A stretch of 64,000 bases of DNA from Bacteroidaceae bacterium (GTDB taxonomy: Bacteria > Bacteroidota > Bacteroidia > Bacteroidales > Bacteroidaceae), in assembly GCA_024398435.1 (NCBI GenBank), contig JAKSJD010000002.1, positions 242,454 through 306,453 of the forward strand, written 5' to 3'. Below the pieces are notes generated by a model that made no database searches, had not been told where the DNA came from, and saw only the letters and a program-made list of their open reading frames with translations. Shown here one piece after another: positions 9,023 through 62,535 of the stretch. Position numbers and translations under genes: made by a program. Within the stretch, counting starts at the first letter, position 1, and the number at the start of each line of letters is the position of its first letter.

Positions 9023-9132
9023 TTCTCGCGTTCCGAATGGTAAAACATCGCGTTTCTTGGCTCAATTTCTATAGGTTCGCACACCTATTTCTCTATAGAA
9101 ATGACCTCTTTTCTTATAAGAAATAGGGTCAT
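9023..9132. repeat. 22-bp-period tandem array A (CGCG/CTATAG family)
   Basis: Five 22-bp units start at 9023, 9045, 9067, 9089 and 9111. The first two centre on CGCG, the third and fourth on CTATAG, the fifth on TTATAA. Unit four contains the inverted repeat ATTTCT-CTAT-AGAAAT and unit five the perfect palindrome TTTCTTATAAGAAA. The array begins 4 nt after the MBL stop codon. Related arrays are at 31887, 52769 and 62404. Confidence 0.75.
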
Positions 9133-9191
9133 TATTAATAATGTTTTCTGTTCGGTGTTGTAAGGCTTGGCCTTGCAAATAATGAATTTTT

Positions 9192-9505
9192 GCAAAAACC
9201 TGTCAGCTGTCAGTTTTTGCCCGTAACTTTCTCTGTGTCTGTTTGTTATATGGCTGACGGATTCCTCCAAACCTGTCAGCATCTGTCAGCCATCCTTCAG
9301 TCGCAATATTGATAAATAATAAGCATTATTCGTATATTTTAAACAAGGAATTTGATGGATTTGTTGATATTAGCCAGAAAATTATTTGAAAAATGACTGA
9401 CAGTTGGCTGAAGGAAACTGACGGCTTTTTTGAAATCCGTCAGCTATATAATCCCCTGATTCTGTATGGGTTACGCCCAAAAACTGACGGCTGACAGGTT
9501 TTTGC
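9192..9505. repeat. Cluster of CTGWCRG heptamers with palindromic element
   Basis: CTGTCAG, CTGACAG, CTGACGG or CCGTCAG occurs at 9200, 9207, 9254, 9273, 9283, 9397, 9418, 9437, 9484 and 9491. At 9192-9220 two copies in tandem are enclosed by GCAAAAAC and GTTTTTGC, an 8-bp inverted repeat. The same element in the other orientation is at 9479-9505 and, slightly changed, at 62294-62323. CTGACGG 9418 and CCGTCAG 9437 form a 7-bp hairpin. Confidence 0.7.
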
Positions 9506-9790
9506 GGAAATAAGTTTTTAGCAGAATGCAGTTAGTGAATATTGTGTAAGATATTTATTTTGTTGTTTGTTAATTTGTACACCATATTATTAAATTTCGA
9601 GTGTGTGTGTCGTGAGCGCATGTACGTGAAGAGTAGAATCTATAGAAATAAGTCGGAAGGTTAGCAACGCTTCTAAAAGTCTCTGCATCACATATTTTGA
9701 TGCTCGAGAATCATTTTGCTCGAAAAAATAGAAAAATGCTGTTAAAAACATATTATTTTTGGTTTTGAACTAAAAAAAAACATGAAAATG

Positions 9791-9822
9791 TTTGCCCATG
9801 TCAAGATTTTTAACGTTATTTG
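9791..9822 (+). promoter_or_regulatory. Candidate promoter of the first large paralogue
   Basis: TTTG at 9791-9794, a 20-bp spacer, then GTTATTTG at 9815-9822, an imperfect -7 box. This would give a leader of about 105 nt that contains the palindrome TACCCC-AAA-GGGGTA (9854-9868). Confidence 0.5.
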
Positions 9823-9932
9823 CACTTAAATATGTAAATGCTTATTGTATATATACCCCAAAGGGGTAAACAACGTAAGAAAAAAAAGAGATTATATAAA
9901 CCTAAGTTTAACTTATTAACAACAAAAAAAGT

Positions 9933-12900
9933 ATGATGAAAAAATTACTTTCTCTCAGCATCGCATTGCTGATGACTGTTGGAGCAATGGCACAGTGGAC
10001 ACTGCCTACTTACAATTTTGTGCCTTTCCAGACAGTTGAAGATTTTGAAGAGTCAGGAACTTTCTTCTACCTCTACAATCCAGCAGCAGAAATGTTCTTT
10101 GGCCCAGGCAACTCTTGGGGTACTCAGGGTAGTATCACTTACAACCCTTCACAGGCTTACTTCACAAAGGCTTTCGAAGAAGGCGAAACTGAAGAAGAGT
10201 GGGCTGAATGGCCTCACTACTTCCTCCATGGTAACATTTGGAGAAACAATGACCCTACTCAGGAATACCTTGGCTGGAAAACTGCATTCTTTGATGGTCA
10301 TGGAGGTTTCTACCTCGATGGTCTGCCAGCAGATATGAACGGCAACTATCAGGGTGGCATGTTCGAAATCTACGAAAATGGTGACGGAACATTCCAGATT
10401 GCTCCATCTCTTTTAAACCCAACATTGAACGACTATGAACTCCGTCTTGGTGTTGACTTGACACAACCAGGTAACACAGGTGTTGCTCTCTTCTATCCAG
10501 ATGAAGAACCATACGAAGGCGCATACGCACTCAACTGGGCTCTCATCACTCCAGAAGAATTCGAGGAAAATCAGGAAGCTCTCCTCACTTATGCTAAGGC
10601 AATGCAGCTCCAGGCACTTCTCGACGAACTTCTCGAAGAGTACACTGAAGAAGAAATTGACTTCACTAACGCTTTTGCAATTCTCGAAAACACAAGCTCT
10701 ACATTGGACGAGCTTGAAGCAGCAATGACCGACCTCAACGAGCAGAAGATCGCTGCCGACCTTATCCGTCAACAGGAACTTAAGGACATCATCTTCGAAG
10801 GTGCAACTGAAGACGACCCTAATGATGTAACTGCAATCCTCGTCAACCCTGACTTCTCTTGCGGCGACGACCACGGATGGACAATGACTATCAACGAATA
10901 TACTGACCGTGGTTACCACGATGCAGAAGTTCGTTCTAACGGTGAAGCTGGTATCGAACTCAACCAGTTCTGCCAGTTCTGGCGCTACAATGATACACTT
11001 GGTATTGGTGAAATCTCTCAGACAATCGAAGACCTCCCAGCTGGTAGATTCTCATTCGAAGTTGATGCTATCGGCGTCAACCAGCGCGATGTAAACTCAA
11101 CTAAAGGTGTTGAACTCTTTGCACTTGGTGGCGAAATCGAAGCTGTTCAGGCAATCAAGACTCGTGATAACATCCCAGAACACTTCATTGTTAATTTCGT
11201 AAGCACAGGTGGCGACGTAACTCTCGGTGTCCGCACAGTTGAAGGAACCAACGCTACTTGGATTGCAGTCGACAACTTCCAACTCTGGTTCTACGGTGAA
11301 TTCGAAGACGACCCTTATAAGGAAATCCTCGACGACTACATCGAACAGCTCGAAGAAAAGTATGCATACATGGATGAAATCTTCGCTAATGCTGAAATCA
11401 AGGAAGCTTACGAAACTGCTCTCGACGAAGCTAAGAATGCAACTGAAGACTTCGACCAGGCAAAGAAGAACCTCGAAGAAAAGGTAGCTGCCCTCGATGC
11501 TTCAATCAAGGATTACGAAACTCTCGCATCTGCTATGGAATATGCCGACAACCGTCGTCTTGAATTCGAAGACACATGGCCAGACCTTTCTGAACTCATC
11601 GCCGACCTCCTCGAGTTTGGTGTTGAAGGTATCTCTGAACAGGGTTGGAGCGAAATGTATGAAGATGGAACTGCCGACAGCGAACTCTGCAACAATGCAC
11701 TTGAAACTGTTGAATCTATTATCTCTGACTATATCTGTGAGAACCTCAAGGCTGGCGACTTTGTAACTCCACTCATCAAGAACCCAGACTTCAAGGATGG
11801 TTTCGACTCTTGGTCAGTCAATGGCAGCCGTCCTGCATTCGGTGGTAAGGAAGGCAACGGACTTAACACTCTCGGCGATGTTGAAGTTCTCGAAAGCGGT
11901 AACGCAGAAGTTTACCACAACGCATTCGATATGTTCCAGACTATCAAGAACATGCCTAAGGGTAGCTTCACTCTCACTTGCCAGGCATTCCAGCGTAACG
12001 AAGGTCGTGATTGGGCTTCTGACTACTTCGTAGGTCCTGAAGAAGGTATCACAGCAGTTCTCTATGCTAACGAGTTCGAAGCTAAGGTTTGCAACTTTGC
12101 AGCAGGTGCACAGGAAGAAGAAGTATTCCACAGCTCTAACGAAAGCTGGGAATCAGATATCTACAATGAAGTAGTTGGTGGTTATCTCCCTAACTCAATG
12201 ACAGGTGCTAACTTCTTCTTCAACATCTCTCCTGAAACTTATCAGGTAAAGGTTAACTTCACACTCGCTGAAGCAGGTAAGGACATCACAATCGGTCTTA
12301 AGAACGCTGATACTAACAGTTGGGTAATCTTCGATAACTTCAACATCGTTTACAACGGAAGCGACTATTCAGGCGCAATCAACGACCTCATCGCAAGCAT
12401 CAATTCGGTACTCGAAAACGAATCATCTATCTTTGGTAATGATGCTAAGGAAAAGGCTGACGAAGCAATCAACAACCTCCTCAAGGCTTCTGCAAGTGGC
12501 GACGAAGATGAATGTATAGCTGCTATCAAGGCTGGTAACGAAGTTCTCGCTTATGTGAAGGAATCAGCTCAGCTCTACAATGCACTTATGGCTGCATTCG
12601 ATGAACTCTCAATTGCATGTGGCGACTACGAAATGACAGCAAGTGAGGAACTCCTCAGCCAGGCAGACGAATTGCTCGACAAGGTTATTGATGCAATGGA
12701 TCAGACTAACCTCACAAACGAAGAAGTTCAGTCACTCATCAACCAGGTAAATAAGATGGCTTCTGCTCTCAGTCTCCCTGACTTCTCAGGTGCAAGCGAA
12801 GAAACTCCAGTTGACTTCACTGAACTCATCGAAAACCCTGACTTCACAGATGCTAACCTCGGTGGATGGCTCGGTACTGAATGGGGTCGTGGCGGTAATG

Positions 12901-13511
12901 TAGCCGATGGTGCTGAACAATACAGCAAGAACTTCGATACTTACCTCGAATTCAAGGGTCTCCCTGAAGGTGTTTACGGAATCTTTGTACAAGGTTTCTA
13001 TCGTAGAGGTAACTCAAACGATGACTACAACATTTGGACTACAAACAAGGATTCTCTCGCTTATGCAGTGCTCTATGCGCAGGTGGCAGACGGTGAATTC
13101 AGTGTGCCTATCGTTCAGCCTTCTTCTGCAGCTCTTCCAGTTGAAGAATCTCTTGGAGAAAGTGCAACTGTAGGTGGTAGCTATGCTATCCCAAGCACAA
13201 TGGTAGGAAGTGACGCTTGGTTCCAGGCTGGCTACTACATGAATTCTCTCTTCGTAACAGTAGGTGAAGACGGTAACCTCCGCTTCGGTGCTAAGAAGGG
13301 CCAGACAATCAATACTGACTGGGCTATCTTCGACAACTGGGCACTCTACTACTACGGAAACGAAACAACTCCTGAAGCTGTTGGTATCGAAGACGTGAAG
13401 ACTGCTCAATCTGTAGCTAAGAAGGGTATCTACACTCTCGCAGGCCAGAAGGTCAGCAACGCTTCTAAGGGCCTCTACATCATGGACGGCAAGAAGGTTC
13501 TTGTTAAGTAA
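9933..13511 (+). CDS. Large exported multidomain protein, paralogue 1
   Basis: 1192 residues, function unrecognised. After a signal peptide (MMKKLLSLSIALLMTVGAMAQ) come a beta-rich N-terminal domain to about 205, then three modules that each open with an NPDF-like segment and close with a DN[FW]..[WY]YG-like strand: about 298-456 (DNFQLWFYG), 611-809 (FDNFNIVYNG) and 962-1143 (FDNWALYYYG). They resemble galactose-binding jelly-roll folds. Acidic helical stretches of FIVAR-like character separate them. The tail (IYTLAGQKVSNASKGLYI..GKKVLVK) resembles a type IX sorting domain. Codon choice is strongly biased, suggesting high expression. The start was chosen by matching the leader of the paralogue at 13876, which has the same GTTTAACTTATTAA stretch before its ATG. 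A surface binding or scaffold role is inference. Confidence 0.85.
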   Translation: MMKKLLSLSIALLMTVGAMAQWTLPTYNFVPFQTVEDFEESGTFFYLYNPAAEMFFGPGNSWGTQGSITYNPSQAYFTKAFEEGETEEEWAEWPHYFLHGNIWRNNDPTQEYLGWKTAFFDGHGGFYLDGLPADMNGNYQGGMFEIYENGDGTFQIAPSLLNPTLNDYELRLGVDLTQPGNTGVALFYPDEEPYEGAYALNWALITPEEFEENQEALLTYAKAMQLQALLDELLEEYTEEEIDFTNAFAILENTSSTLDELEAAMTDLNEQKIAADLIRQQELKDIIFEGATEDDPNDVTAILVNPDFSCGDDHGWTMTINEYTDRGYHDAEVRSNGEAGIELNQFCQFWRYNDTLGIGEISQTIEDLPAGRFSFEVDAIGVNQRDVNSTKGVELFALGGEIEAVQAIKTRDNIPEHFIVNFVSTGGDVTLGVRTVEGTNATWIAVDNFQLWFYGEFEDDPYKEILDDYIEQLEEKYAYMDEIFANAEIKEAYETALDEAKNATEDFDQAKKNLEEKVAALDASIKDYETLASAMEYADNRRLEFEDTWPDLSELIADLLEFGVEGISEQGWSEMYEDGTADSELCNNALETVESIISDYICENLKAGDFVTPLIKNPDFKDGFDSWSVNGSRPAFGGKEGNGLNTLGDVEVLESGNAEVYHNAFDMFQTIKNMPKGSFTLTCQAFQRNEGRDWASDYFVGPEEGITAVLYANEFEAKVCNFAAGAQEEEVFHSSNESWESDIYNEVVGGYLPNSMTGANFFFNISPETYQVKVNFTLAEAGKDITIGLKNADTNSWVIFDNFNIVYNGSDYSGAINDLIASINSVLENESSIFGNDAKEKADEAINNLLKASASGDEDECIAAIKAGNEVLAYVKESAQLYNALMAAFDELSIACGDYEMTASEELLSQADELLDKVIDAMDQTNLTNEEVQSLINQVNKMASALSLPDFSGASEETPVDFTELIENPDFTDANLGGWLGTEWGRGGNVADGAEQYSKNFDTYLEFKGLPEGVYGIFVQGFYRRGNSNDDYNIWTTNKDSLAYAVLYAQVADGEFSVPIVQPSSAALPVEESLGESATVGGSYAIPSTMVGSDAWFQAGYYMNSLFVTVGEDGNLRFGAKKGQTINTDWAIFDNWALYYYGNETTPEAVGIEDVKTAQSVAKKGIYTLAGQKVSNASKGLYIMDGKKVLVK

Positions 13512-13553
13512 TAGGCCTCAATAAGTCCTTCATTTGAAGGGACAAAATATCTG

Positions 13554-13587
13554 GATGCTCGGGCAGAAATGCTCGGGCATCTTTTTT
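13554..13587 (+). terminator. Terminator of paralogue 1
   Basis: Twelve-base stem 13554-13565 with 13570-13581 closed by a GAAA tetraloop, followed by six T. It is the end of a 72-nt 3' segment (13514-13585) that is 70/72 identical to that after paralogue 2. Confidence 0.88.
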
Positions 13588-13638
13588 ATCTAGAAACCCT
13601 AGTCCCCCTAGTCTTCCTAGAATCCCTAGAACTTCCAG
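13585..13638. repeat. 9-bp tandem repeat NNNCCCTAG
   Basis: Six consecutive 9-bp units ending in CTAG or a variant (units start 13585, 13594, 13603, 13612, 13621, 13630). They directly follow the terminator of paralogue 1. There is no equivalent after paralogue 2. The remaining gap up to 13875 is AT-rich and contains the promoter listed next. Confidence 0.65.
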
Positions 13639-13676
13639 CTTATTTTTAATGCTTTAATAAAAAAAACGTTGAAATA

Positions 13677-13708
13677 TTTGGTAGATTCAAAAAAAAACGT
13701 TTCCTTTG
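13677..13708 (+). promoter_or_regulatory. Candidate promoter of the second large paralogue
   Basis: TTTG 13677-13680, 20-bp spacer, TTCCTTTG 13701-13708 (one base off the TAnnTTTG box). The implied leader is about 160 nt and AT-rich. Confidence 0.5.
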
Positions 13709-13875
13709 TAAGCAGAATATCATTTTCGCTAATCATTGAAATATTACTCTATATTATAATAAATAGTATATAATTGATATAAGTGCTGTTGAATTCAAAT
13801 TTAGAATATTAATACCAAAGATATAAATCAAAAATAGAAATAAAACATTTGTTTAACTTATTAAATTATCAAAGT

Positions 13876-16800
13876 ATGTTGAAAAGATTACTTACAACAA
13901 GTGTGATGATACTCATGTGTGTAGTGTCATTCGCACAGAATTGGGATCGTCCTTTAGCAAAGGACCTCAAGTTTGCAAGTGAGTTGAAGTCAACTCTTCA
14001 GAAAGGTACTTATTGGGATGGCGATACTACCATCTACTACCTTTACAATGTTGAGGCTGATGCATTCCTCACTAACAACACTTGCCCTAACCACGACCAG
14101 TGGTCTACTCATGCTGCACTGAAGAAGGAAGTGGGCAATCCTGTATTCATGGCTCAGTATCGTCTTGACCCTTATTTCACTTACGACACAACTTATGTTG
14201 ATGAGTCGAAGACTGAAATCCTCAAGATTGATACAATCCTCAATGTTATTCCTTGGGACAATGTAACTTACAAGATTCTCGACCTCTTCAATGGTTCTTG
14301 GAAGGGTGTGTTCCCAAATACATGTTATACGATGTTCGTTGACCGTGGAAGCCAGCCAAACTACATGTGGAATGTGAAGGACATGGGCAATGGTATTTTC
14401 CGTATCAGTGTATCTGATGTCAACCCTGACTACAACTCAACTCTTGCTGACAGTCTCTTCGGAAATCCAGAAACTTATCTTGGTTTCAACTTCAAGGATG
14501 AAGACTATTATGAAGGAGAGGATGTTCCTGTAATGCCTCTTACTCCAATGATCAGTGTAACAGGTTATGTATGGAATTCGGCTTATGTAGGCGAAGAACT
14601 TCTCGAATGCGAACCTGCTATCGATTGGAAGTTCATTCCACAGGCAGAATTCCTTACTTGGCAGTCACAGGTCAAGGCTTGGGATTACATCAACAGTGGT
14701 GCTTTGGAGGACTATATGGACGAAATGAAGAGCCAGTATGGCAATAGAGTCAACTTGTCAGCAGCTGAGGCAATCCTCAACTCTACATCTCCTGTACTCT
14801 ATGAAGATATCGAAAAGATGCAGTTGGATGTTCAGCTTTCTTTGCTTGATGGTGCATCAGACGAAAACCCTGTAGATGCAACTGTCCTTATGCAGAATGC
14901 CAACTTCGATGCTTTGAACGTTAATGGATGGACTCTCAACTATACTAAGGGTACGAATGTAACTAACCTTGGTATCGACCCTAATGGAACTGTTTATACA
15001 AATGGTGATATCAGAGTTGAACACTTCATCGAAGCTTGGTCAAATGTTGCCTACAATCCTGATGTAACTACCCGTGCCCTTGGTGATGGTTCTGTTTATC
15101 AGACAATCGCAGGACTTCCAGCAGGTAAGTACACATTCACTTGTGATGCTATCTCTGTTTGTCAGGATAATAAGTCGCTTCAGGTAACAGGTGCTTACCT
15201 CTATGCAAAGAGTGGTGACAACTTGTTCCAGACTCCAATCTGCACAGGTGATGGTATTCCAGAGCATTTCGAAGTGATGTTCATCAAAGCTGATGAAGGC
15301 GGTACATTCGAATTTGGTTTCCGTACAGAGAAGACAACAGCCAACTGGATGGCTTGTGATAACTTCGAACTTACATACTATGGACCAGTGAAGGACGACC
15401 CTTATAAGATTGTCCTTGATGGTATCATTGCTTCTATCGAAAGTGAAATCCCTGATTTGGATAATGTTTATGCAAGTGTTGAGGCTAAGGAAACATTTGC
15501 AGCCGCAATGGAAGCTGCTGCCGCTGCTACTGACGACTTCAAGAACCAGTGTGATATCCTCAATGCTGCTTATGATGCATTCAAGGCAAACATCAAGGAA
15601 TATCAGGCATTCAAGGCTGCTATCGATGCTGCCGAAGAGCGTCGTCTTGAGTTTGATGAAGTTTGGCCAGACCTTTCAAACGAACTTGCTGACCTCCTCA
15701 TGGAATGGGAAGACTTGTATGCAGAAGGAACTGCTGATGATGAGACTTGCCAGAATGCAGCTAATGTTGTTCAGGAAACAATCATGAACTACATCACTGA
15801 AAACATGCAGCCAGGCGACAATATCACTCCGCTCATCAACAATGGTGACTTCAAGACTGACTTCAGTGGTTGGAAGACTACAGGTGCTGTTCCAGCATGG
15901 GGCGGTATCAGTCCTAACAACCTTAATCCAGATGAAATGACATCTGGCAATGCTGAGGTATTCCAGGCTGTATTCAACATGTATCAGGTTATCCGCAACA
16001 TGCCTAAGGGTAGTTTCACTCTTACTTGTCAGGCATTCGAACGTAATGATCAAGGTTATGCAGCACAGTTTGCTCAGGGTCCAGAAGTTGGTATCAACGG
16101 TGTGCTCTATGCTAATTCAACTGAAAAGAAGATTAACAATATCCTCGCATATGCTCAGCCAGAACAGATATTCAACGATGGTCAATGGTGGTCTGACGTT
16201 TCTACTGACTACGGTTATATTCCTAACGGTATGCCAGGTGCAAACTACTACTTCAACATCTCTCCTGAAACTTATCAGGTAAAACTTACCTTCACTCTTC
16301 CAGAGGCTGGTGATAGCATCACAATCGGTTTGAAGACTGCTTCTACAAGTAGTTGGATTATCTTCGACAACTTCGAACTCTTCTACAATGGTAATGGTGT
16401 TGAGGCTTACGAAGAACCAATCAACGACCTCCTCGCAGAACTTGAAAAGGTATTCGATGAAGCTATTTATTATGGTACGGACGCAGCTGACCTTGTTGAC
16501 GCAGCAACTAAGGATCTCATTGCAGCTCTCAATGGAACAGACGGTGATGCATGTATTGCAGCTCTTGATAAGGGTAATGCAGCACTTGCTTATGCTAAGG
16601 CTTCAGTTGAGGCATACAACAAGCTCAATACTGCTTATGACGACCTTATCTTTGCATTTGAGGATGGTGCTGAAGAAGCATCTCCTGTAGCTGTAGAAAA
16701 GGCTGAAGCTAAGCTCGCTGAAATCGAAGATGCATTCGACAACCTCGGTCTTACAGTTGAGGAAGTTGACGCTTTGACAGCATCTGTTGCTGATGTAATT

Positions 16801-17574: not shown

Positions 17575-17614
17575 GGCCTCAATAAGTCCTTCATTCGAAG
17601 GGACAAAATATTTG

Positions 17615-17646
17615 GATGCTCGGGCAGAAATGCTCGGGCATCTTTT
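17615..17646 (+). terminator. Terminator of paralogue 2
   Basis: Same hairpin as at 13554: stem 17615-17626 with 17631-17642, GAAA loop, then TTTTG. It ends the conserved 3' segment 17575-17646. Confidence 0.87.
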
Positions 17647-17703
17647 GTTTTCTATTGAATAAAAAGTTGAAACACCTTGCTTCATTTTCCTGTTTCTATT
17701 GAA

Positions 17704-17813
17704 TAATAAATCGTACTCAATGTTTGGTACGATTGTACTCAGCGTTTGGTACGATTGTACTTCGGGTTTGGTACGATTGTACTCAGGGTTTGGTACGATT
17801 TTTGTTGCAGGCT
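17704..17813. repeat. 22-bp-period tandem array B
   Basis: Units start at 17704, 17726, 17748, 17770 and 17792. The three central units are nearly identical (GGTACGATTGTACTCAG plus GGTTT-type end); the outer two are partial. GTAC-GATT-GTAC inside each unit is an inverted repeat. A 22-bp period cannot encode a repeat peptide in one frame. The sequence is unrelated to array A but the period is the same. Confidence 0.85.
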
Positions 17814-17936: not shown

Positions 17937-17964
17937 TTCGTATTTCGTATTTCGTATTTCGCAA
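17937..17964. repeat. Heptamer repeat TTCGTAT x4 upstream of the tonB-like gene
   Basis: Three perfect TTCGTAT copies and a fourth TTCGCAA, ending 8 bp before the -7 box at 17973. The position where a -33 element would fall (about 17949-17953) is inside the repeat, so a change in copy number could alter promoter spacing. Confidence 0.7.
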
Positions 17965-17972
17965 TTAATCAC

Positions 17973-27929: not shown

Positions 27930-28016
27930 GTCATAACTTATGACTTGAACGTCATAACATTGTGACTTGAACGACATAACATTATGACTTGAAAGACATA
28001 ACTTATGATTTGAGAA
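27930..28016. repeat. 22-bp-period tandem array C
   Basis: Four units start at 27930 (21 bp), 27951, 27973 and 27995 (22 bp each). Each holds an inverted repeat, e.g. GTCATAA-C-TTATGAC in unit 1, followed by a CTTGAA-type spacer. Sequence unrelated to arrays A and B. Confidence 0.85.
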
Positions 28017-31846: not shown

Positions 31847-31889
31847 AAAAGGGCGGTAGTTGGAATTGTTAGCTAACTATCGTCCTTTT
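31847..31889. terminator. Bidirectional terminator between SGNH gene and recO
   Basis: Fifteen-base stem 31847-31861 with 31875-31889 (two G-U pairs), 13-nt loop, AAAA on one side and TTTTT on the other, so it can end transcription from either side of this convergent pair. Confidence 0.85.
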
Positions 31890-32083
31890 TCTAGCTGTTC
31901 GAAGGCTCGAGTTTAGCAAGAAATGATGCTGAGTTTAGCAAGAAATGAGCTCGAGTTTAGCAAGAAATGAAGTTGAGTTTAGCTGTTCGTGGAACGAAAC
32001 ATCGCGTTCGTTGGCATGAAGTTTCGCGAAGTTTTAGGTAAAGTTTCGCGATGTTTAGGGGCGAATCTCGCGTTCTTTTCCGA
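31887..32083. repeat. 22-bp-period tandem array D (AGTTTAGC/CGCG family)
   Basis: Units start at 31887, 31909, 31931, 31953 and 31975, then after a 21-bp step at 31996, 32018, 32040 and 32062. Units 2-4 share GAGTTTAGCAAGAAATGA; later units share AAGTTTCGCGA. TAGCTGTTCG occurs at the same unit offset at 31892 and 31980. Read on the minus strand, units 2-4 (CATTTCTTGCTAAACTC) align with those of array F (CATTTCTCGCGAAACTC). The array ends 11 nt from the recO stop. Confidence 0.85.
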
Positions 32084-42095: not shown

Positions 42096-42544
42096 AACAC
42101 TGCAAATATACAAAATTTGTTTTACTCCTACAAATTCTAAACTGAATTTTATTCAGTTTTCTTCTTACTTTTTGGTTTATGATGCCTAAATGCCTTTTTT
42201 CTCCAGTTTTTTCCTTTTGTTTGGCTTTTTCCCTTTGGCAGGCGGAATGTTTCGCGATATAATTTTTATCTTTCCATGCTCCTCGCAAACTTTTCCGAAA
42301 TGCCTTGCTTCAAAACTTCCCGAACCTTGCTTAAAAACCTCTTTTTCCTATAATAGTTTTTATAATTATGTGCAATATTATTATTAATTATGTACAGTAT
42401 TAATATTAATTATGTGCAATATTATTATTAATTATGTACAGGATTTTACTTTTGTTCTTGGCTTCGAGAAGGAATTATCCTGAATGTTTAGGAAAATGGA
42501 GGAAGGCAAACCACATTTTCATGCAGTTGCCTTCCTGCAAAAGG
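42096..42544. other. 449-nt gap inside the dcw cluster
   Basis: No credible gene. The left part is T/C-rich with a TTTCGCGATAT piece near 42250, a two-copy 22-bp repeat at 42304, then AT-rich array E (42365-42441). Everything around it is read leftward, so the gap is co-directional. It is unusual in a cluster whose other gaps are mostly 8-60 nt. Confidence 0.7.
42304..42441. repeat. 22-bp-period tandem array E
   Basis: CTTGCTT at 42304 and again 22 bp later at 42326; then units of ATTATGTGCAATATTATTA type starting at 42365, 42387, 42409 and 42431. Alternate units differ at GTGCAA versus GTACAG. TAAT..ATTA ends make each unit weakly inverted-repeat. AT-rich and unrelated to arrays A-D in sequence. 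Confidence 0.8.
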
Positions 42545-45222: not shown

Positions 45223-46491
45223 TTATCTAATCTTCAATGTTATGATTGTGAATGCTGCCAAAAGAACCGTAATAATCCAGAAACGGATTGTAATCATATT
45301 CTCGTGAAGTACGGTTGTTGGTCGCTTGCAAAGATATTTGCAGTCGGGAATAAGTTGGTTCTGCAAAACACGGAAATGGTCGTGAATAGGAGCGCGCTTG
45401 AACACTCTTTGCTTCACTCCACGCTTATTGCCCTTCTTTGCGTACGACACTTGCAGAATGACTGAAAGACTCTCGATAAGGAATATTCCGCAAAGGATAG
45501 GGAGAAGCAATTCCTTATGGATGATTACTGCAGTTACGGCAATAACTCCACCAATTGCAAGACTTCCTGTATCGCCCATGAACATCTTTGCAGGATAAGT
45601 GTTGTACCAAAGGAATCCAATCAATGCACCCACAAAGGCACACATGAACACAACAATCTCTTCCGACCCCGGAATATACATTACATTCAGATAGTCGGCA
45701 AATTGAATGTGACCTGATACATAAGCCAGAATGCCAAGTGTGGTTCCGATGATGGCCGAATTGCCTGCACACATTCCGTCCATTCCGTCATTGAGATTGG
45801 CTCCATTCGAAACGGCTGTGATGACGAATGTTGTTACGAGAATGAAAAGAATCCAACCACATGCACGCTTTGTCTTACCGTCCTTTATGAAACTGAATGC
45901 CTCATAATAGTCAAGGTTGTTGTTCTTGAAGAATGGAACTGTTGTTACGGTTGACTTTCTTGCTTCACTCTTGTGATAAACTTCGATAGAATTACCGATT
46001 TCACGCTCAACATTCTCTCTTACAACTGCTTGAGGACTCAACCAAAGGGCAATTCCTATTACACAGCCAAGCAGCAACTGACCAAGCAATTTGTAGCGAG
46101 GCTTCATTCCGTCCTTATTGCCTTTGAGCTTAATATAGTCGTCAATAAATCCGAGAAGGCCGAACCAAAGAATCGTAACAAGCAGAAGATTCGTATAGAT
46201 ATTGTCGAGTCGGCCAAGTAAAAGAGCTGGAATCACAACAGCAGCCACAATGATGATTCCACCCATTGAAGGAGTGTCTTTCTTCAAAACACCATAAGGG
46301 TCGATTTCTGCATCACGAGCCTTCTCGATAATACGCTTACGCTTCATGTATGTGATAAATCCTTTGCCAGCCAGCATGGAAATAAGCAGTGACAACATCA
46401 TTGCCAAAAGTGAGCGGAATGAAATGTATGACCACATGCCGGCTCCCGGAATGTTGAATTGTTCGAGGTATTGGGTGAGATGGTATAACAT
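45223..46491 (-). CDS. mraY: Phospho-N-acetylmuramoyl-pentapeptide transferase
   Basis: MraY makes lipid I from UDP-MurNAc-pentapeptide and undecaprenyl phosphate. 422 residues, about ten membrane segments; motifs KKDTPSMGGIIIV, FLGFIDDYIKLKGN (the Asp pair), TNGANLNDGMDGMCAG-like SNGANLNDGMDGM, FMGDTGSLAIGG and KRAPIHDHF. At 422 residues it is longer than the approximately 360 of E. coli; the extra part is a loop near 150-215 (ENVEREIGNSIEVYHKSEAR), as in other Bacteroidetes MraY proteins. Confidence 0.96.
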   Translation of the reverse strand: MLYHLTQYLEQFNIPGAGMWSYISFRSLLAMMLSLLISMLAGKGFITYMKRKRIIEKARDAEIDPYGVLKKDTPSMGGIIIVAAVVIPALLLGRLDNIYTNLLLVTILWFGLLGFIDDYIKLKGNKDGMKPRYKLLGQLLLGCVIGIALWLSPQAVVRENVEREIGNSIEVYHKSEARKSTVTTVPFFKNNNLDYYEAFSFIKDGKTKRACGWILFILVTTFVITAVSNGANLNDGMDGMCAGNSAIIGTTLGILAYVSGHIQFADYLNVMYIPGSEEIVVFMCAFVGALIGFLWYNTYPAKMFMGDTGSLAIGGVIAVTAVIIHKELLLPILCGIFLIESLSVILQVSYAKKGNKRGVKQRVFKRAPIHDHFRVLQNQLIPDCKYLCKRPTTVLHENMITIRFWIITVLLAAFTIITLKIR

Positions 46492-52768: not shown

Positions 52769-52856
52769 AAAGTTTAGCTGTTCGGAGGGCAATTTCTCGC
52801 GAAACTCGAGGTCATTTCTCGCGAAACTCAGGGTCATTTCTCGCGAGGTTTTTTCT
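52769..52856. repeat. 22-bp-period tandem array F (CTCGCGAAAC family)
   Basis: Units start at 52769, 52791, 52813 and 52835. Units 2-4 share ATTTCTCGCGA, and units 2 and 3 AATTTCTCGCGAAACTC or CATTTCTCGCGAAACTC; TTTC-TCGC-GAAA is a short inverted repeat. Unit 1 carries AGTTTAGCTGTTCG, 14 bases identical to 31976-31989 in array D. Confidence 0.85.
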
Positions 52857-53008: not shown

Positions 53009-53038
53009 CACACTGTAAACAATTATTTTTATCGTAAT

Positions 53039-53776: not shown

Positions 53777-53817
53777 TAATTTTCCTAAATAAGTCGTTCT
53801 CACTTCAAGCAAAACCA

Positions 53818-56079: not shown

Positions 56080-56170
56080 TGAAATTCAGTTTTTGAACTA
56101 TTGTTCAAGTATCAATCCAATACTTTTGACATTCATTTTGTAAGGCTTTCCGACAAAAACTTCAACTTTC

Positions 56171-56202
56171 TTTGGCTATTTAGGCAAAAAGCAGTATTTT
56201 TG
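56171..56202 (+). promoter_or_regulatory. Promoter of the threonine operon
   Basis: TTTG 56171-56174, 20-bp spacer, TATTTTTG 56195-56202; the thrA ATG follows 34 nt later. No leader peptide or attenuator hairpin is visible in that short stretch. TTGAAC-TATT-GTTCAA at 56093-56108 is a small inverted repeat after priA. Confidence 0.82.
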
Positions 56203-56236
56203 CAACCAAATTTATAAAGAAAGAATCAGTAACACG

Positions 56237-58666
56237 ATGAAAGTACTTAAATTTGGCGGAACATCCGTAGGTTCCGCAGAAAGCATTCTCAATGTAAAGA
56301 AAATTGTTGAAGCACAGGAAGAACCAGTTGTAGTGGTTGTTTCGGCTTTGGGTGGAATTACCGACGAACTTATTCACACATCTCATCTCGCATTGGCAGG
56401 CGACGAATCATACATCGCTGCCTATGAAATGATTGTGGGTCGTCATCATGATATAATCAATTCGACAATAACCGATGCTACCAAGAAGGCAGCATTGAAT
56501 CAAGAGGTTGATGCACTTCTCAGCGACCTGAAGAGCATTTACCAAGGTGTGTTCCTCATTCGCGACCTTTCAGAAAAGACTCTCAATGCAATTGTAAGCT
56601 ATGGAGAGCGCATTTCATCACGAATCGTTGCTACATTGATTGATGGAGCAGTTTGGCGTGATGCCCTTACATTCATCAAGACTGAGAAGAAGTTGGGCAA
56701 GAACTTGCTCGAATCTGATCTTACCACAAAACTCGTACAAGATGCCTTCAGCGAAGAAGCAAAGGTGGCACTTGTACCAGGTTTCATTTCTTCTGATGCC
56801 CATACAGGTGAAATAACAAATCTCGGCAGAGGTGGTTCCGACTATACAGCAAGTATCATTGCAGCATCTCTCGATGCGAGTGTACTTGAAATATGGACAG
56901 ATGTTGATGGTTTCATGACAGCCGATCCAAAGGTTATCAACACAGCTTATCCAATCGAACGCCTTAGCTATGTTGAAGCAATGGAACTTTGCAACTTCGG
57001 TGCAAAGGTTGTTTATCCACCAACAATCTATCCTGTCTGCATAAAGAATATCCCAATTCTCATAAAGAACACTTTCCATCCAGAGGTAAAGGGAACAATC
57101 ATCGAACTCGAAAACAACGATGAATCACGTGCCATCAAGGGTATCAGTTCAATCAATGATACAAGCCTTATCACGGTGGCAGGTCTTTCGATGGTAGGTG
57201 TGATTGGTGTCAACCGTAGAATCTTCACTGCTTTGGCAGAAAACCAAATCAGTGTGTTCATGGTCAGTCAGGCTTCATCAGAGAACAGTACTTCAATTGG
57301 TGTGAGAAACGAAGATGCTGAACTTGCATGCCAAGTTTTGAACGAAGAGTTTGAGAAGGAAATCCAGATGGGTGCGATGTTCAAGATGAAGGTAGAGAAG
57401 AATCTCGCTACAGTGGCTGTTGTAGGTGAAAACATGAAGCACACACCAGGTATTGCAGGTAAGTTGTTCGGTACGCTTGGCCGCAATGGTATCAGTGTGA
57501 TTGCCTGTGCTCAGGGAGCTTCCGAAACCAATATCTCGTTTGTTGTCGAAAGCAAGTATCTCCGCAAGTCGCTTAATGTAATCCACGATAGTTTCTTCCT
57601 TTCAGAGTATCAGGTTCTCAATCTCTTCATTTGTGGAGTCGGAACTGTTGGTGGAAGTCTTATCCAGCAGATTGCGAGTCAGCGTGAGAAACTTATGAAG
57701 GAGCGCAACCTCATGCTTAATGTTGTGGGAATTGCAAGCAGCAAGAAGGCAATTTTCAACCGTGAAGGCATCGACCTCGCTAATTATCGCGAACTTCTCA
57801 ATATGAGCGAACCAAGCAGTATTTCTCGCCTGAAGGATGAGGTCATCGGAATGAACATATTCAATTCTGTATTTGTGGATTGCACAGCCAGTCAGGATGT
57901 TGCAGCTCTCTATAACGATTTCTTCGAGCATAGTATTTCTGTTGTGGCAGCAAACAAGATTGCCGCTTCATCTGATTATGCAAATTATGCCCTTCTGAAG
58001 AAAACTGCCCGCAGAAGAAATGTCAAGTTCCTCTTCGAAACGAATGTAGGTGCCGGACTTCCTGTCATTAATACCATTAACGACCTTATCAACAGTGGTG
58101 ACAAGATTTTGAAGATTGAGGCAGTGCTCAGTGGCACACTCAACTTCATATTCAATACAATCAGTGCTGAAGTTCCTTTCAGTGAAACGGTTCGCCGTGC
58201 AAAGGAAGAAGGCTATTCAGAACCCGATCCACGAATCGACCTCAGTGGAAAGGATGTTATCCGTAAGCTTGTTATCCTCTCACGTGAGGCTGGATACAAC
58301 CTCAATCAGGATGATGTCGAGAAGCATCTGTTCGTGCCAAACGAATTCTTCGAAGGATCGCTTGAGGACTTTTGGAAGAATCTCCCATCACTCGATGCCG
58401 ATTTCGAGGCAAAGCGCAAGGTTCTCGAGGCCAACAACAAGCATTGGCGTTTTGTTGCCCGACTCGAAGAAGGTAATGGTACGGTATCGCTTATGGAAGT
58501 TGATTCCCACCATCCATTCTATGGACTTGAAGGCTCCAACAATATCATCCTTATCACAACAGAACGCTATCACGACTATCCAATGCTCATTCAGGGATAT
58601 GGAGCAGGAGCGAGCGTGACTGCAGCAGGTGTGTTTGCTGATATTATGAGTATTGCTAATATTTAG
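56237..58666 (+). CDS. thrA: Bifunctional aspartokinase / homoserine dehydrogenase
   Basis: 809 residues. The aspartokinase domain (1 to about 290) starts MKVLKFGGTSVGSAESI and has NLGRGGSDYTASIIA; two ACT regulatory modules follow (about 300-460, e.g. VAVVGENMKHTPGIAGKLF); the homoserine dehydrogenase domain (about 465-809) starts LFICGVGTVGGSLIQQIASQ (NAD(P) loop) and has AANKIAASSDY, SGTLNFIFNT and EPDPRIDLSGKDVIRKL. It performs the first and third steps from aspartate to threonine, and the ACT region suggests feedback control by threonine. First gene of thrA-apgM-like-thrC. Confidence 0.96.
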   Translation: MKVLKFGGTSVGSAESILNVKKIVEAQEEPVVVVVSALGGITDELIHTSHLALAGDESYIAAYEMIVGRHHDIINSTITDATKKAALNQEVDALLSDLKSIYQGVFLIRDLSEKTLNAIVSYGERISSRIVATLIDGAVWRDALTFIKTEKKLGKNLLESDLTTKLVQDAFSEEAKVALVPGFISSDAHTGEITNLGRGGSDYTASIIAASLDASVLEIWTDVDGFMTADPKVINTAYPIERLSYVEAMELCNFGAKVVYPPTIYPVCIKNIPILIKNTFHPEVKGTIIELENNDESRAIKGISSINDTSLITVAGLSMVGVIGVNRRIFTALAENQISVFMVSQASSENSTSIGVRNEDAELACQVLNEEFEKEIQMGAMFKMKVEKNLATVAVVGENMKHTPGIAGKLFGTLGRNGISVIACAQGASETNISFVVESKYLRKSLNVIHDSFFLSEYQVLNLFICGVGTVGGSLIQQIASQREKLMKERNLMLNVVGIASSKKAIFNREGIDLANYRELLNMSEPSSISRLKDEVIGMNIFNSVFVDCTASQDVAALYNDFFEHSISVVAANKIAASSDYANYALLKKTARRRNVKFLFETNVGAGLPVINTINDLINSGDKILKIEAVLSGTLNFIFNTISAEVPFSETVRRAKEEGYSEPDPRIDLSGKDVIRKLVILSREAGYNLNQDDVEKHLFVPNEFFEGSLEDFWKNLPSLDADFEAKRKVLEANNKHWRFVARLEEGNGTVSLMEVDSHHPFYGLEGSNNIILITTERYHDYPMLIQGYGAGASVTAAGVFADIMSIANI

Positions 58667-58687
58667 TACCTTCAGGATTTTTTTCAG

Positions 58688-59824
58688 ATGAAACATATAA
58701 TCATACTTGGCGATGGAATGGCCGACCACCATGTTGAACGACTTGGGGGAAAGACACTCCTGCAATACGCCAATACTCCAAATATGGACCTTCTTGCCCG
58801 CATGGGCCGAACTGGTTTGCTCAAGACCGTTCCTGAAGGTTTCCAGCCAGGAAGTGAAGTGGCCAACACATCAATTCTTGGATACGACCTCAACGAAGTG
58901 TATGAGGGCCGTGGACCTCTCGAAGCAGCAAGTATAGGTTATGAGATGCAGCCAGGCGATATGGCCATGCGTTGCAATATCATTGCCATTGAGAATGGTG
59001 TCATCAAGAATCATCATGGCAACCACATGACCACCGAACGAGGAACAGAACTTATCCACTTGCTCGATGAGAAACTGGGTAATGAAAGTGTGAAGTTCAT
59101 TCCTGGCATTCAATACCGTCATTTGTTGGTGATAAAGGGTGGTAATAAGAATATAGTATGCTATCCGCCTCACGACCATCCAAACGAGGTTTGGCGAGAT
59201 ATGCTGCCAAACGACGAACTGCTCACCGACCTCATCCTCCATTCTCAGGAAATTCTTCCCGAAGGCCTTACCATCTGGCCATGGAGCCCAGGCAACCGTC
59301 CTTCCATGGTTCCACTGTCAGTCACATATCCACAGATTCGCAAGGGTTCGGTCATTTCTGCAGTCGACCTAATTCGGGGAATTGGCCACTATGCCGGACT
59401 TCGAATCATCAATGTAGAGGGTGCCACCGGTTTGGCCGATACCAATTATGAAGGCAAGGCCCAGTCGGCAATCGAGGCATTGAAGGGTGGTGATGATTTC
59501 CTTTTCCTTCATGTGGAGGCAAGCGACGAAGCCGGTCATGATGGTGATTTGGATTTGAAACTCCAGACAATCGAAAACCTCGACCGCCGGTTGATTGGTC
59601 CGATTTATGAGGCATTCAGGGATGAAGACATTGCCATTGCCGTTCTTCCCGACCATCCTACACCAGTGGAACTTCGCACACATGTTGGCGAACCCGTACC
59701 TTTCCTCATTTGGTATAAGGGCATAGAGGCAGATGATGTGAAGCAGTTTGATGAAGACAGTTGCAGCCATGGAGTGTATGGTATGCTTCAAGGAGATGAA
59801 TTCATAAAAGAGTTTATTGGATAA
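58688..59824 (+). CDS. ApgM-family phosphoglycerate mutase-like protein, candidate homoserine kinase
   Basis: 378 residues of the alkaline-phosphatase superfamily, archaeal-type cofactor-independent phosphoglycerate mutase group: ILGDGMAD at the N-terminus (metal site), GSEVANTSILGYD with the likely catalytic Ser, FLHVEASDEAGHDGD and VLPDHPTPVELRTH metal-binding segments. It lies 21 nt after thrA and 35 nt before thrC, the place of thrB. From memory, COG3635 proteins in this position have been proposed as functional analogues of homoserine kinase; I do not cite a source. Sequence alone cannot separate that role from phosphoglycerate mutase activity. No GHMP-type ThrB is in the window. Confidence 0.85.
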   Translation: MKHIIILGDGMADHHVERLGGKTLLQYANTPNMDLLARMGRTGLLKTVPEGFQPGSEVANTSILGYDLNEVYEGRGPLEAASIGYEMQPGDMAMRCNIIAIENGVIKNHHGNHMTTERGTELIHLLDEKLGNESVKFIPGIQYRHLLVIKGGNKNIVCYPPHDHPNEVWRDMLPNDELLTDLILHSQEILPEGLTIWPWSPGNRPSMVPLSVTYPQIRKGSVISAVDLIRGIGHYAGLRIINVEGATGLADTNYEGKAQSAIEALKGGDDFLFLHVEASDEAGHDGDLDLKLQTIENLDRRLIGPIYEAFRDEDIAIAVLPDHPTPVELRTHVGEPVPFLIWYKGIEADDVKQFDEDSCSHGVYGMLQGDEFIKEFIG

Positions 59825-59859
59825 TACAATTAGGAATTTATTAAAAAAACATACAGGAT

Positions 59860-61170
59860 ATGCAGTTTTACAGCACTAACGGAAAAGCTCCTATGGCCGA
59901 TTTGAGAAAGGCCGTAGTAAAGGGTTTGGCAGAAGATAAGGGCCTTTATATGCCACAGGAAATAAAGACTCTCCCAAAGGCATTCTTCGACAACATTCAG
60001 GACATGTCGTTCCGCGATATCGCCTACAATGTGGCAAGTGCCTTCTTTGGAGAGGATGTTGATGGCGATGCTCTCTACGACATTGTAGCCGACACCCTCA
60101 GTTTCGATTGTCCAGTCGTGAAGGTCAACGACAATATCTATTCACTCGAACTTTTCCATGGTCCTACACTCGCATTCAAGGATGTGGGAGCTCGGTTTAT
60201 GGCTCGTTTGCTCAGATATTTCCTTTGCAGTCAGAATGCCGACAAGGAGCAGACAGTGAATGTCCTTGTAGCCACTTCGGGTGATACGGGCAGTGCTGTA
60301 GCCAATGGTTTCCTTGGAGTTGATGGCATTCATGTGTATGTCTTGTATCCAAAGGGAAAGGTAAGTCCTATTCAGGAGTGCCAGTTCACCACACTCGGAC
60401 AGAATATCACAGCCATTGAAGTTGATGGAGTTTTCGATGATTGCCAGGCACTTGTGAAGTCGGCATTCATGGATGAAGATCTCAACAAGGCCCTTCGCCT
60501 TACATCGGCCAACAGCATCAATGTGGCTCGTTTCCTTCCACAGGCATTCTACTATTTCAATGCCTATGCTCAGATGAAGAAGAAAGGATTGGCCGACAAT
60601 TTGGTCGTATGTGTTCCTTCAGGTAATTTCGGCAATATATGTGCCGGTTTGTTCGCAAAGCGAATGGGCCTGCCAATCAAGCGATTCATAGCCGCCAACA
60701 ATGCCAACAGCGTGTTCTACGAGTTCCTTCAGACAGGCGAATATCTTCCACGTCCATCCGTTCAGACAATTGCCAATGCAATGGATGTAGGCGACCCAAG
60801 CAACTTTGCCCGCATCTTCGACCTCTACGGACATTCACATGCCGCAATCGTGAAGGACATCAGTGGTACTACATTCTCCGACGAGCAAATTGCCGAAACC
60901 ATAAACGATGTATTCTCCCACACCGGTTATCTTTGCGACCCTCATGGAGCATGTGGCTACAGAGCACTCGAAGAAGGACTCGATGCCGATGAGGTAGGCG
61001 TATTCCTCGAAACTGCTCATCCTGCAAAGTTCAAGCAAACAGTGGATGCAATCATCGAAGGCGATGTAGAGATTCCAGCACCTCTTGCAGCATTTATGCA
61101 GGGAAAGAAGGAAAGTGTGCCAATGTCGAAAGACTTTGCAGATTTCAAGCAATTCCTGCTCAAAGCATAA
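59860..61170 (+). CDS. thrC: Threonine synthase
   Basis: ThrC converts O-phosphohomoserine to threonine, a PLP enzyme. 436 residues: MQFYSTNGKAPMADLRKAVVKGL, the PLP lysine in FHGPTLAFKDVGARF, phosphate loop LVATSGDTGSAVANGFLG and the C-terminal VPSGNFGNICAGLFAKRMGLP. The ATG at 59860 is 35 nt after the ApgM-like gene. It ends the threonine operon. The 87-nt gap after it holds TGTAGAGTTTAGAGTG and CTCCATTCTCCATTAT, low-complexity stretches common in Bacteroidetes gaps. Confidence 0.96.
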   Translation: MQFYSTNGKAPMADLRKAVVKGLAEDKGLYMPQEIKTLPKAFFDNIQDMSFRDIAYNVASAFFGEDVDGDALYDIVADTLSFDCPVVKVNDNIYSLELFHGPTLAFKDVGARFMARLLRYFLCSQNADKEQTVNVLVATSGDTGSAVANGFLGVDGIHVYVLYPKGKVSPIQECQFTTLGQNITAIEVDGVFDDCQALVKSAFMDEDLNKALRLTSANSINVARFLPQAFYYFNAYAQMKKKGLADNLVVCVPSGNFGNICAGLFAKRMGLPIKRFIAANNANSVFYEFLQTGEYLPRPSVQTIANAMDVGDPSNFARIFDLYGHSHAAIVKDISGTTFSDEQIAETINDVFSHTGYLCDPHGACGYRALEEGLDADEVGVFLETAHPAKFKQTVDAIIEGDVEIPAPLAAFMQGKKESVPMSKDFADFKQFLLKA

Positions 61171-61257
61171 ATAGTGTAGAGTTTAGAGTGTAGAGATTGC
61201 GGATAACCGAATAATTCTCCATTCTCCATTATACATTCTGCATTAAAAAACAAACTG

Positions 61258-62034
61258 ATGATCAAAGCAATATTCCTCGATATAGATGGGACACTTGTGT
61301 CGTTCAACACCCACAAAGTGCCCGAATCAGCCATTGAGGCATTGCACGCAGTCAGGAGATTAGGAGTCAAGGTCATTATAGCCACAGGTCGCCCCCGTCC
61401 GTTTGTCGACAATCTCGGAAGGTTGGAATATGATGGCCTTATGACCGTCAACGGAGCCAGCATCCGAATGGCCGACGGCAGTGTCATTGCCCACAATCCC
61501 ATTCCACGCGCAGATCTCGACCGTTTGATAGCCTACTATCACGCCCATCCGTTCCCAATAGCATTTGCCACCGACGACGAGACATTCATTACCGACACAT
61601 CCCCCGAATCCGTCCACATACTCCAGTTGCTCAATCTCCCTTGTCCTCCCGTTCGCCCCATCGAATCGTGCCTCGAGATGGACGTGATGCAGATAATCGC
61701 ATTCTTCACTCCAGAGCAGGAAACATATATCATGCAGAATGTGCTGCATGGATGCAGTGCCCAACGTTGGCACAGCTATTTCGCCGATGTGATATGTGCC
61801 GGCAATGACAAGGCCCACGGAATAGATGTAGTCGCCCAGCATTATGGAATCGACCTATCCGAAGTGATGGCTTTCGGCGATGGAGGCAACGACCTCACGA
61901 TGCTTCGTCATGTGGGATATGGAATAGCGATGGGCAATGCCCGCGAGGCAGTAAAGGAAGCAGCACGATATGTCACCAAATCAGTGGATGAAAATGGCAT
62001 TGCAGAGGCATTAAAGCAGTTTTTCCCCATATAA
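61258..62034 (+). CDS. Cof-type HAD-IIB phosphatase
   Basis: 258 residues: HAD motif I FLDIDGTL (Asp8, Asp10), motif II IIATGRP, motif III Lys in NDKAHGID and motif IV FGDGGNDLTML. The C2b cap lies between about 85 and 185. Members dephosphorylate sugar phosphates or cofactor intermediates; the substrate here is unknown. Several short direct repeats and a promoter for tRNA-Phe follow. It is probably transcribed separately from thrC. Confidence 0.9.
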   Translation: MIKAIFLDIDGTLVSFNTHKVPESAIEALHAVRRLGVKVIIATGRPRPFVDNLGRLEYDGLMTVNGASIRMADGSVIAHNPIPRADLDRLIAYYHAHPFPIAFATDDETFITDTSPESVHILQLLNLPCPPVRPIESCLEMDVMQIIAFFTPEQETYIMQNVLHGCSAQRWHSYFADVICAGNDKAHGIDVVAQHYGIDLSEVMAFGDGGNDLTMLRHVGYGIAMGNAREAVKEAARYVTKSVDENGIAEALKQFFPI

Positions 62035-62067
62035 TTGCATTTTTTTTAGCAGAAAATTGCAAAAAGT

Positions 62068-62098
62068 TTTGGTAGTACGAAAAAAATGTCTACCTTTG
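62068..62098 (+). promoter_or_regulatory. Promoter of tRNA-Phe
   Basis: TTTG 62068-62071, 19-bp spacer, TACCTTTG 62091-62098, the same arrangement as at tRNA-Glu. Confidence 0.87.
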
Positions 62099-62116
62099 CA
62101 CCCGCAAAACCAAAAT

Positions 62117-62189
62117 GGTGCCTTAGCTCAGTTGGTAGAGCAAAGGACTGAAAATCCTTGTGTCCCCGGTTCGATTCCTGGAGGTACCA
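62117..62189 (+). tRNA. tRNA-Phe (anticodon GAA)
   Basis: 73 nt without encoded CCA. Acceptor GGTGCCT with AGGTACC, D arm AGCTCAGTTGGTAGAGC, anticodon stem AAGGA/TCCTT with loop CTGAAAA, anticodon GAA at 62150-62152, T arm CGGTTCGATTCCTGG. A terminator hairpin follows. Confidence 0.97.
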
Positions 62190-62193
62190 CACG

Positions 62194-62220
62194 AAAGCCG
62201 CTTACAAGAGCGGCTTTTTT
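62194..62220 (+). terminator. Terminator of tRNA-Phe
   Basis: AAAGCCGCT 62194-62202, loop TACAAG, AGCGGCTTT 62209-62217, then TTT. Confidence 0.88.
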
Positions 62221-62293
62221 GTTTGCTCATGGTTCCAAGAAGATTTGCTGATTACACGAATACTTTTTCTTATCCTTATAAAAAAGAATTTTT

Positions 62294-62323
62294 CCAAAAA
62301 CTGACAGGCTGACAAGTTTTTGC
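62294..62323. repeat. Dispersed CTGACAG element, third copy
   Basis: AAAAACTGACAGG at 62296, CTGACAAG at 62309, ending GTTTTTGC (62316-62323): the element seen at 9479-9505 and, in reverse, at 9192-9220. Confidence 0.65.
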
Positions 62324-62403
62324 AAAAATAAGATTTTGCAAGGCTTTTCATAACTAATATCTCATAACTAATATCTAATATCTGATAACTAATATCTTTA
62401 CGA

Positions 62404-62535
62404 AAAACATTATGGTTCGCGAGGCAATTGTTATAGAGAAATGACCTCATTTCTATAGGTTCTCGACCTCATTTCTCTATAGAAATTACCCCAAACATCG
62501 CGGTTCATAACCTCTCGAAACGCGAACAATTCTAC
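62404..62535. repeat. 22-bp-period tandem array G (CTATAG/CGCG family)
   Basis: Units start at 62404, 62426, 62448, 62470, 62492 and 62514. Units three and four begin CATTTCTATAGG and CATTTCTCTATAGAAAT; units one, five and six carry CGCG or ATTATGG-type centres. CATTTCTCTATAGAAAT matches unit four of array A, and unit five (AAACATCGCG) matches unit two of array A. Confidence 0.8.

Follow-up and report, generated by a model that had tools for sequence, protein, structure and literature searches.

Intergenic arrays of changing sequence share a 22-bp pitch in Bacteroidaceae genomes

We analyzed a 64,000-nucleotide stretch of DNA from a Bacteroidaceae bacterium (GenBank assembly GCA_024398435.1, contig JAKSJD010000002.1, positions 242,454 to 306,453; hereafter the window), in whose long gaps a sequence-only reading had located seven arrays with a 22-bp period. 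All seven are confirmed. Tandem Repeats Finder (TRF) reports period 22 at 17713-17800, 27932-28013, 31909-31983, 42363-42437 and 52792-52846, and a scan for arrays at lag 22 recovers the same five (arrays B, C, D, E and F); arrays A and G, too diverged to be detected at period 22 by TRF or the lag scan, rest on cores that stand in register. Array B (17704..17803, plus strand) belongs to a GTAC family and has four units and inverted ends (AATCGTAC and GTACGATT). Array C (27930..28013) consists of four CATAAC-TTATG units, of which the first and the last are one base shorter, so that its first step is 21. Array D (31887..32074) had been recognized as an array but runs longer than described, to 32074; its nine cores (31893 to 32069) are separated by steps of exactly 22 throughout, and the register is kept across a switch from GTTTAGC-type to CGCG-type units. 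Four units of the AATTATGTACAATATT family make up array E (42355..42445), which is embedded in a frame (42289..42521) of ∼66 bp on each side, whose words are shared between copies and fade outward with no sharp end (18 copies compared). Array F (52769..52848) contains TTTCTCGCGAAAC units with cores at 52776, 52798, 52820 and 52842. Arrays A (9023..9132; cores at 9027, 9049, 9069, 9093 and 9114) and G (62404..62535; cores at 62409, 62431, 62453, 62477, 62499 and 62521) use a CGCG/TATA vocabulary. Their core centers modulo 22 are 9, 9, 8, 10, 9 and 20, 20, 20, 0, 21, 21, respectively; array G includes one 24-bp step and an additional CGCG (62418) that is out of phase.

The seven arrays had been called mostly unrelated in sequence, which holds for arrays B, C and E; arrays A, D, F and G share CGCG or TATA cores and arms such as AGAAAT, ATGTTT, GGTTC and others. 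We searched a 464-kb sample of the same 2.3-Mb, 77.6% complete genome (the 64-kb window and a further 400 kb, with loci L003-L022), using a crude gene caller that takes the longest open reading frames (ORFs) of at least 80-90 codons. At lag 22 this sample holds 23 intergenic arrays, compared with 0-2 at each of lags 20 and 23-26, 10 at lag 21, 15 at lag 14 and 12 at lag 9. The absence of arrays from genes, claimed earlier for the window, is thereby nearly complete: one of the 24 lag-22 matches is called coding, probably array C, which the caller places within an 89-codon and probably spurious ORF. Forty dinucleotide-preserving shuffles of the gaps gave a mean of 0.05 lag-22 arrays, and the excess is thus real. 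Extrapolating from 23 per 464 kb, the whole genome would hold about 115 arrays.

Other short periods occur in the same DNA. Tandem repeats of 7 bp (TTCGTAT, ATATCTA, ATGCAGG and others) are very common, for instance at 17937-17961 and 62350-62397 of the window and in L003-L022, and the TRF output for the 464 kb has 59 rows with a 7-bp period, compared with 25 with a 22-bp period. Repeats with a period of 18-19 bp and CTAGG or CCTAGG words (L005:1178-1231, L005:16226-16284 and L008:13965-14011) perhaps represent another dispersed family.

The 22-bp spacing is held where the intervening sequence is not. Among 82 intergenic CGCG occurrences in the 464-kb sample, the distances between pairs are 22 (27 cases), 44 (13), 66 (3) and 88 (1); distances of 20, 21, 23 and 24 are absent, and there is a single case each of 42, 43, 64, 65, 86 and 87. 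Outside the CGCG word, the 27 pairs at 22 bp agree over their 18 remaining positions with a median identity of only 0.44 (mean 0.51). Different words are locked to one another in the same way: within 100 bp, 40 of 56 CGCG-AGAAAT pairs fall in one phase modulo 22, as do 31 of 46 CGCG-GAACC, 28 of 42 CGCG-ATTTCT and 22 of 27 AGAAAT-GAACC pairs. Enrichment of these four word pairs is 15-18-fold at 22 and at most 7.7-fold at other periods from 18 to 26.

Several of the arrays are members of families dispersed through the genome. The GTAC family of array B is found at 13 places, with four units at identical 22-bp steps in all 13 copies and with short inverted ends (AATAAATCGTAC / GTACGATTTATT), and it is absent from all 40 relatives searched. 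Family E occupies 28 places and was not found in any of 16 further species of the genus; comparisons of its orientation, flanks, folding and steps cover the 18 places recovered by BLAST, the remaining places probably having been lost to the low-complexity filter. Family C is present at five places, and a search with array F returned 27 matches in the genome.

We find the same period in other genomes. A search with the cell-wall cluster protein encoded at 45223-46491 of the window identified, as closest named relatives, rumen or gut genomes labeled Bacteroidaceae, Bacteroidales or Prevotellaceae. (One record, L036, is titled Roseburia sp. yet encodes a protein 79% identical to that of the window and groups with Bacteroidaceae records; the title is probably wrong.) In a sample of 80 loci from relatives, there are 15 intergenic lag-22 arrays in L023-L065 and 28 in L066-L102, compared with at most 8 at any other lag from 9 to 60, except for 14 at lag 44 in L066-L102; the crude ORF caller places 6 of 21 and 9 of 37 lag-22 matches, respectively, in coding sequence. 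Other Bacteroidaceae genera contain 8 (G021), 6 (G023), 5 (G024) and 4 (G018) lag-22 arrays, although three of the eight in G021 (L144, L145, L273) resemble simple AT-rich sequence. There is none in 46 kb of another genus of the family (G017), none in 40 kb of G010, from the same genus as the window, and none in five further families of the order (584 kb). An earlier sample of other families gave one AT-rich match (L137), and 400 kb from five genomes of other classes or orders gave one array. The pooled Bacteroidaceae samples yield 101 arrays at lag 22, compared with 12 at 20, 38 at 21, 9 at 23 and 5 at 24, in a scan whose test span narrows with the lag and in which lags 14, 16 and 17 are also high (152, 45 and 34). 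In G023, seven intergenic lag-21 arrays (L158, L159, L286-L290) stand beside the six at lag 22, and the pitch may differ between lineages. Arrays are present in named, cultured strains (Hoylesella marshii, L084; Phocaeicola faecalis, L099; Phocaeicola sartorii, L066) and are therefore not an artifact of metagenome-assembled genomes. The proposal that the period rather than the sequence is conserved is supported both elsewhere in this genome and in other Bacteroidaceae genera.

Corresponding gaps illustrate the exchange of sequence. One gap of a cell-wall cluster carries AGTACT arrays in L035 and L043, a CATACGTATG array in L053, and is short and without an array in L044. The gap between an ftsW-like and a murG-like gene, comparable in 70 loci, holds a GATATC/AGGCCT array in L025 and two GAGTGCGCACTC copies 22 bp apart in L061, and is without an array in the nearest relatives, L023 and L024. 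Allowing up to three mismatches, a two-unit AGTACT-N8-AGTACT-N2 pattern is present in 42 of 301 Bacteroidaceae genomes and in 11 of 30 genera, compared with one match in each of two genomes for the reversed control pattern. A single genome (G118, genus g55) has 343 matches, the next-highest of the other 300 has 29, and G012, from the same genus as the window, has 18. We compiled 20 AGTACT arrays from 23 loci together with L035 and L043 (L305 was removed by hand; L312 and L313 are the same places as L305 and L297, and L308 and L043 repeat other arrays). Their unit number is three in 6, four in 11 and five in 3 arrays, and all 57 steps equal 22 when 20-24 are allowed. The GTAC cores of these arrays and of the GTAC family in the window share the same 8/14 spacing. 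In G024, the motif AAACA-N4-TGTTT-N8 has 342 matches, compared with 16 for its control, and 63 of 65 steps are 22, counting weak outer units. Eight of 15 G024 arrays have the center order ATAT-CTTG-ATAT-ATAT or its reverse complement, one of them with a changed center. We also considered that the G024 arrays might form a chromosomal domain, and dropped the idea because sampled stretches at 1.4, 1.6 and 1.8 Mb contain arrays.

We compared sites with the linkers that separate them. In an orthologous AGTACT array from three species, the hexamers from the second onward show 1, 1 and 2 differences over 42 positions, compared with 10, 11 and 12 over 32 positions for the linkers; the first unit is less conserved, with an indel in L043. 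In the 13 of 15 G024 copies that could be oriented, the four sites have an information content of 1.0-1.8 bits per position and the linkers of 0.3-0.7 bits; beyond the four sites, the next unit on one side reaches 0.97 bits and units farther out at most 0.54. The three-species comparison and the G024 bit contents thus indicate maintenance of the sites and their spacing but not of the linkers, as judged from one orthologous place and the copies in one genome.

Each unit had been said to carry a short inverted repeat, which does not hold as a general rule. A whole-unit dyad test gave p < 0.05 for 5 of 23 arrays in the genome; the same threshold was reached by 34 of 86 controls with other periods and by 15 of 25 arrays with period 21, and we rejected whole-unit palindromy as a common property, since control arrays do no worse. 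At CGCG sites, complementarity of the arms is below chance at two positions and above it at none, and does not extend beyond the core.

Gene context provides no common rule. Of the 101 pooled arrays, 94 have both neighbors present and no ORF across the middle; 43 lie in co-directional, 29 in divergent and 22 in convergent gaps, as do 154, 100 and 72 of 326 background gaps of at least 200 bp. The pooled gap types thus equal background and gene ends are not favored; on these counts we rejected a terminator or promoter role. Individual families differ from one another: the GTAC copies are divergent in nine and co-directional in four of 13 cases, with none convergent; the family E copies are divergent in 9, co-directional in 7 and convergent in 2 of 18; and those of family C are divergent in three and convergent in two of five. 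Together these three families show a preference for divergent gaps (21 of 36 cases, compared with 25 of 79 gaps of at least 200 bp in the same genome). The 17 AGTACT arrays with both neighbors known are convergent in 8, co-directional in 7 and divergent in 2 cases. Of the 35 proteins neighboring AGTACT arrays, 20 were scanned; 15 of these have a Pfam family and their functions are mixed, and operators of a regulon were rejected on these grounds. The arrays probably do not serve gene regulation in the usual sense. A RhuM-family gene (PF13310, L309:372-1406) adjoins one AGTACT array and does not recur among the other scanned neighbors. No replication initiator was seen among the 20 scanned neighbors or 10 window proteins, with no systematic search made. 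Beyond array G, the window contains 69-bp (23-codon) tandem repeats reported by TRF at 62887-63821, which we presume to resemble those of BspA-type leucine-rich proteins.

In our judgment there is an even chance that the arrays, which are dispersed elements, act as lattices of binding sites read at every second helical turn by a cooperative DNA-binding protein. Each would be a non-coding intergenic element of ∼90-220 bp, often with four strong sites and weaker outer sites in register, whose centers are 22 bp, or about two double-helix turns, apart. A sequence-specific protein, probably a dimer, would bind neighboring sites cooperatively along one face of the DNA. The spacing would be needed by this protein, such that indels are removed and linkers drift; whole elements have been copied around each genome, and the recognized sequence would be replaced between lineages with the geometry kept. 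The shared spacing and the lineage-specific sites suggest landing pads for a DNA-binding protein, with a role that would be structural rather than tied to particular genes. The reader could be a host protein or the transposase of the element itself. More tentatively, and with greater doubt than belief, we consider a Bacteroidaceae-wide system of about four sites at a 22-bp pitch, with tens to more than 100 arrays per genome and a rapidly re-targeted protein, serving nucleoid organization or its own spread and having no described bacterial counterpart.

Several observations weigh against a strictly periodic lattice and its reader. No reader protein was found. Two turns of B-DNA are nearer to 21 than to 22 bp, and the analyzed copies of family E have 16 steps of 21 along with 35 of 22, a short unit being present in 15 of 18 copies. 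Arrays A and G drift by 1-2 bp from the register, CGCG-TATA phasing is loose (31 of 166 pairs), and CTATAG pairs favor a distance of 24 (three cases). A simple homodimer does not explain the CGCG family, because its arms are asymmetric. Part of the constant spacing is inherited, because the copies within a family share a single ancestral element. Finally, autocorrelation, expected to peak at 22, does so in the window, where no other lag between 5 and 66 scores as high (z = 6.8 at lag 22); in the 400 kb outside it, lag 22 is strong (z = 8.6) but is exceeded by lags 7 (13.8), 21 (10.3) and 14 (9.1), peaks that we attribute to the many 7-bp repeats.

The arrays might instead be selfish elements resembling miniature inverted-repeat transposable elements (MITEs), with BrickBuilt as a precedent, whose units bind a transposase and whose 22-bp pitch is a property of that enzyme, with no host function. 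We regard this as unlikely but as deserving serious weight, given the conserved internal order of the elements (four units in all GTAC copies and one center order in 8 of 15 G024 arrays) and the lack of a common function among the scanned AGTACT neighbors. However, the flanks of family E fade rather than end sharply, inspection by eye revealed no apparent target-site duplication around the 13 GTAC copies, and the conservation of sites between species at the one orthologous place is not expected of dead copies.

Mutation alone, by slippage or template switching at palindromes, could generate 22-bp repeats with no reader at all, an explanation that we consider improbable. Unit number does vary, with five units in L025 and three in L061 in one gap, and 7-bp, 18-19-bp and 21-bp repeats are common too. 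But the spacing persists where units have lost their similarity, different words are phase-locked, and sites change more slowly than linkers; for these reasons a reader fits better than a purely mutational process. The sequence-only reading had proposed either a shared generating process or a protein reading the units. The second alternative is the one favored here, and the first survives in part: dispersed copies demand some process of copying, as conserved sites and spacing demand a reader.

An action through hairpins, as structured RNA, tandem terminator or cruciform, appears very improbable, and we rejected it as a candidate. Some arrays do fold strongly (z = -7.3 for array B, -7.4 for L078, and -3.4 to -11 for GTAC elements with their flanks on the TTTGGTAC strand), but repeated dyads alone would produce this, and arrays D and F fold no better than shuffles (z = -1.0, 0.0, -0.7 and -1.9). 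In a swap test, the two flanks of a copy had no pairing advantage over flanks combined from different copies. In a unit-shuffle test of 77 AGTACT units, we found no paired changes across the dyads (z = -1.8 to 1.2 at 10 pair positions), as expected of independent half-sites on double-stranded DNA. The background-like distribution of pooled gap types and the mostly divergent setting of the GTAC copies also speak against hairpins. Least probable of all is that the arrays are repetitive extragenic palindromes (REPs) or bacterial interspersed mosaic elements (BIMEs) mobilized by a RAYT transposase: in the extracts of PMC2817692, REPs are dispersed, extragenic, lineage-specific palindromes, often in regular arrays and with several binding proteins, much like the sites described here, but they are reported there to keep their palindrome through complementary changes, which the AGTACT units do not show, and to have a GT(A/G)G head, and the 77.6% complete genome has no match to Y1_Tnp (PF01797), the only transposase family searched for.

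The preferred reading, a protein-bound lattice, has wider implications. Repeat searches that depend on alignment overlook a signature of this kind, in which the spacing is conserved and the sequence changes. If the lattices are read by a protein, abundant gut bacteria would have a DNA-binding system that spans the chromosome, and motif turnover would exemplify, in bacteria, the rapid co-evolution of a protein with its many genomic sites. G118, with its many AGTACT matches, is a good genome for further work.

We found no prior description of these arrays among the titles and abstract openings listed from the open-licence full-text literature, and no precedent there for a shared pitch without a shared sequence. 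We know of no pitch common to REPs of unrelated sequence. Plasmid iterons, MetJ boxes and plasmid centromeres are tandem sites bound cooperatively on one face of the helix with constrained spacing, and they occupy one locus or a few, where their function is defined; the arrays, by contrast, are spread out next to genes that have nothing in common. The 188-bp repeat PINSR of the Prevotella intermedia group is likewise highly amplified, intergenic and lineage-specific, comes from the same wider bacterial group and has no terminal inverted repeats; compared by description only, it differs in that the extracts of PMC4755523 mention no internal 22-bp periodicity. A set of 250 palindromic RNA candidates includes four, 80-132 bp long, that are largely or entirely restricted to Bacteroidetes (extract of PMC8040213). 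BrickBuilt of Porphyromonas gingivalis, as given in the extracts of PMC4596501, is a MITE with a 23-nt unit, ∼19 copies per genome and 1 to 22.8 repeats. It shares with our arrays a dispersed, always intergenic location (apart from the single, probably spurious coding call), short tandem units and a limited host range within the Bacteroidales. BrickBuilt is, however, one sequence family with a leader and a tail bearing IS5-type terminal inverted repeats, whereas the arrays have a 22-bp unit (none in the genome is at lag 23), mostly 3-5 strong units, many unrelated motifs and, in family E, fading flanks; the GTAC copies do have short inverted ends. BrickBuilt and REP/BIME elements are the nearest known systems, each differing from the arrays in at least one defining feature tested. 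The BrickBuilt paper also cites 22-nt tandem repeats in P. gingivalis strain W83 (PMC4596501); the Bacteroidaceae limit is thus one of our samples only, and the 22-bp period may reach beyond this family.

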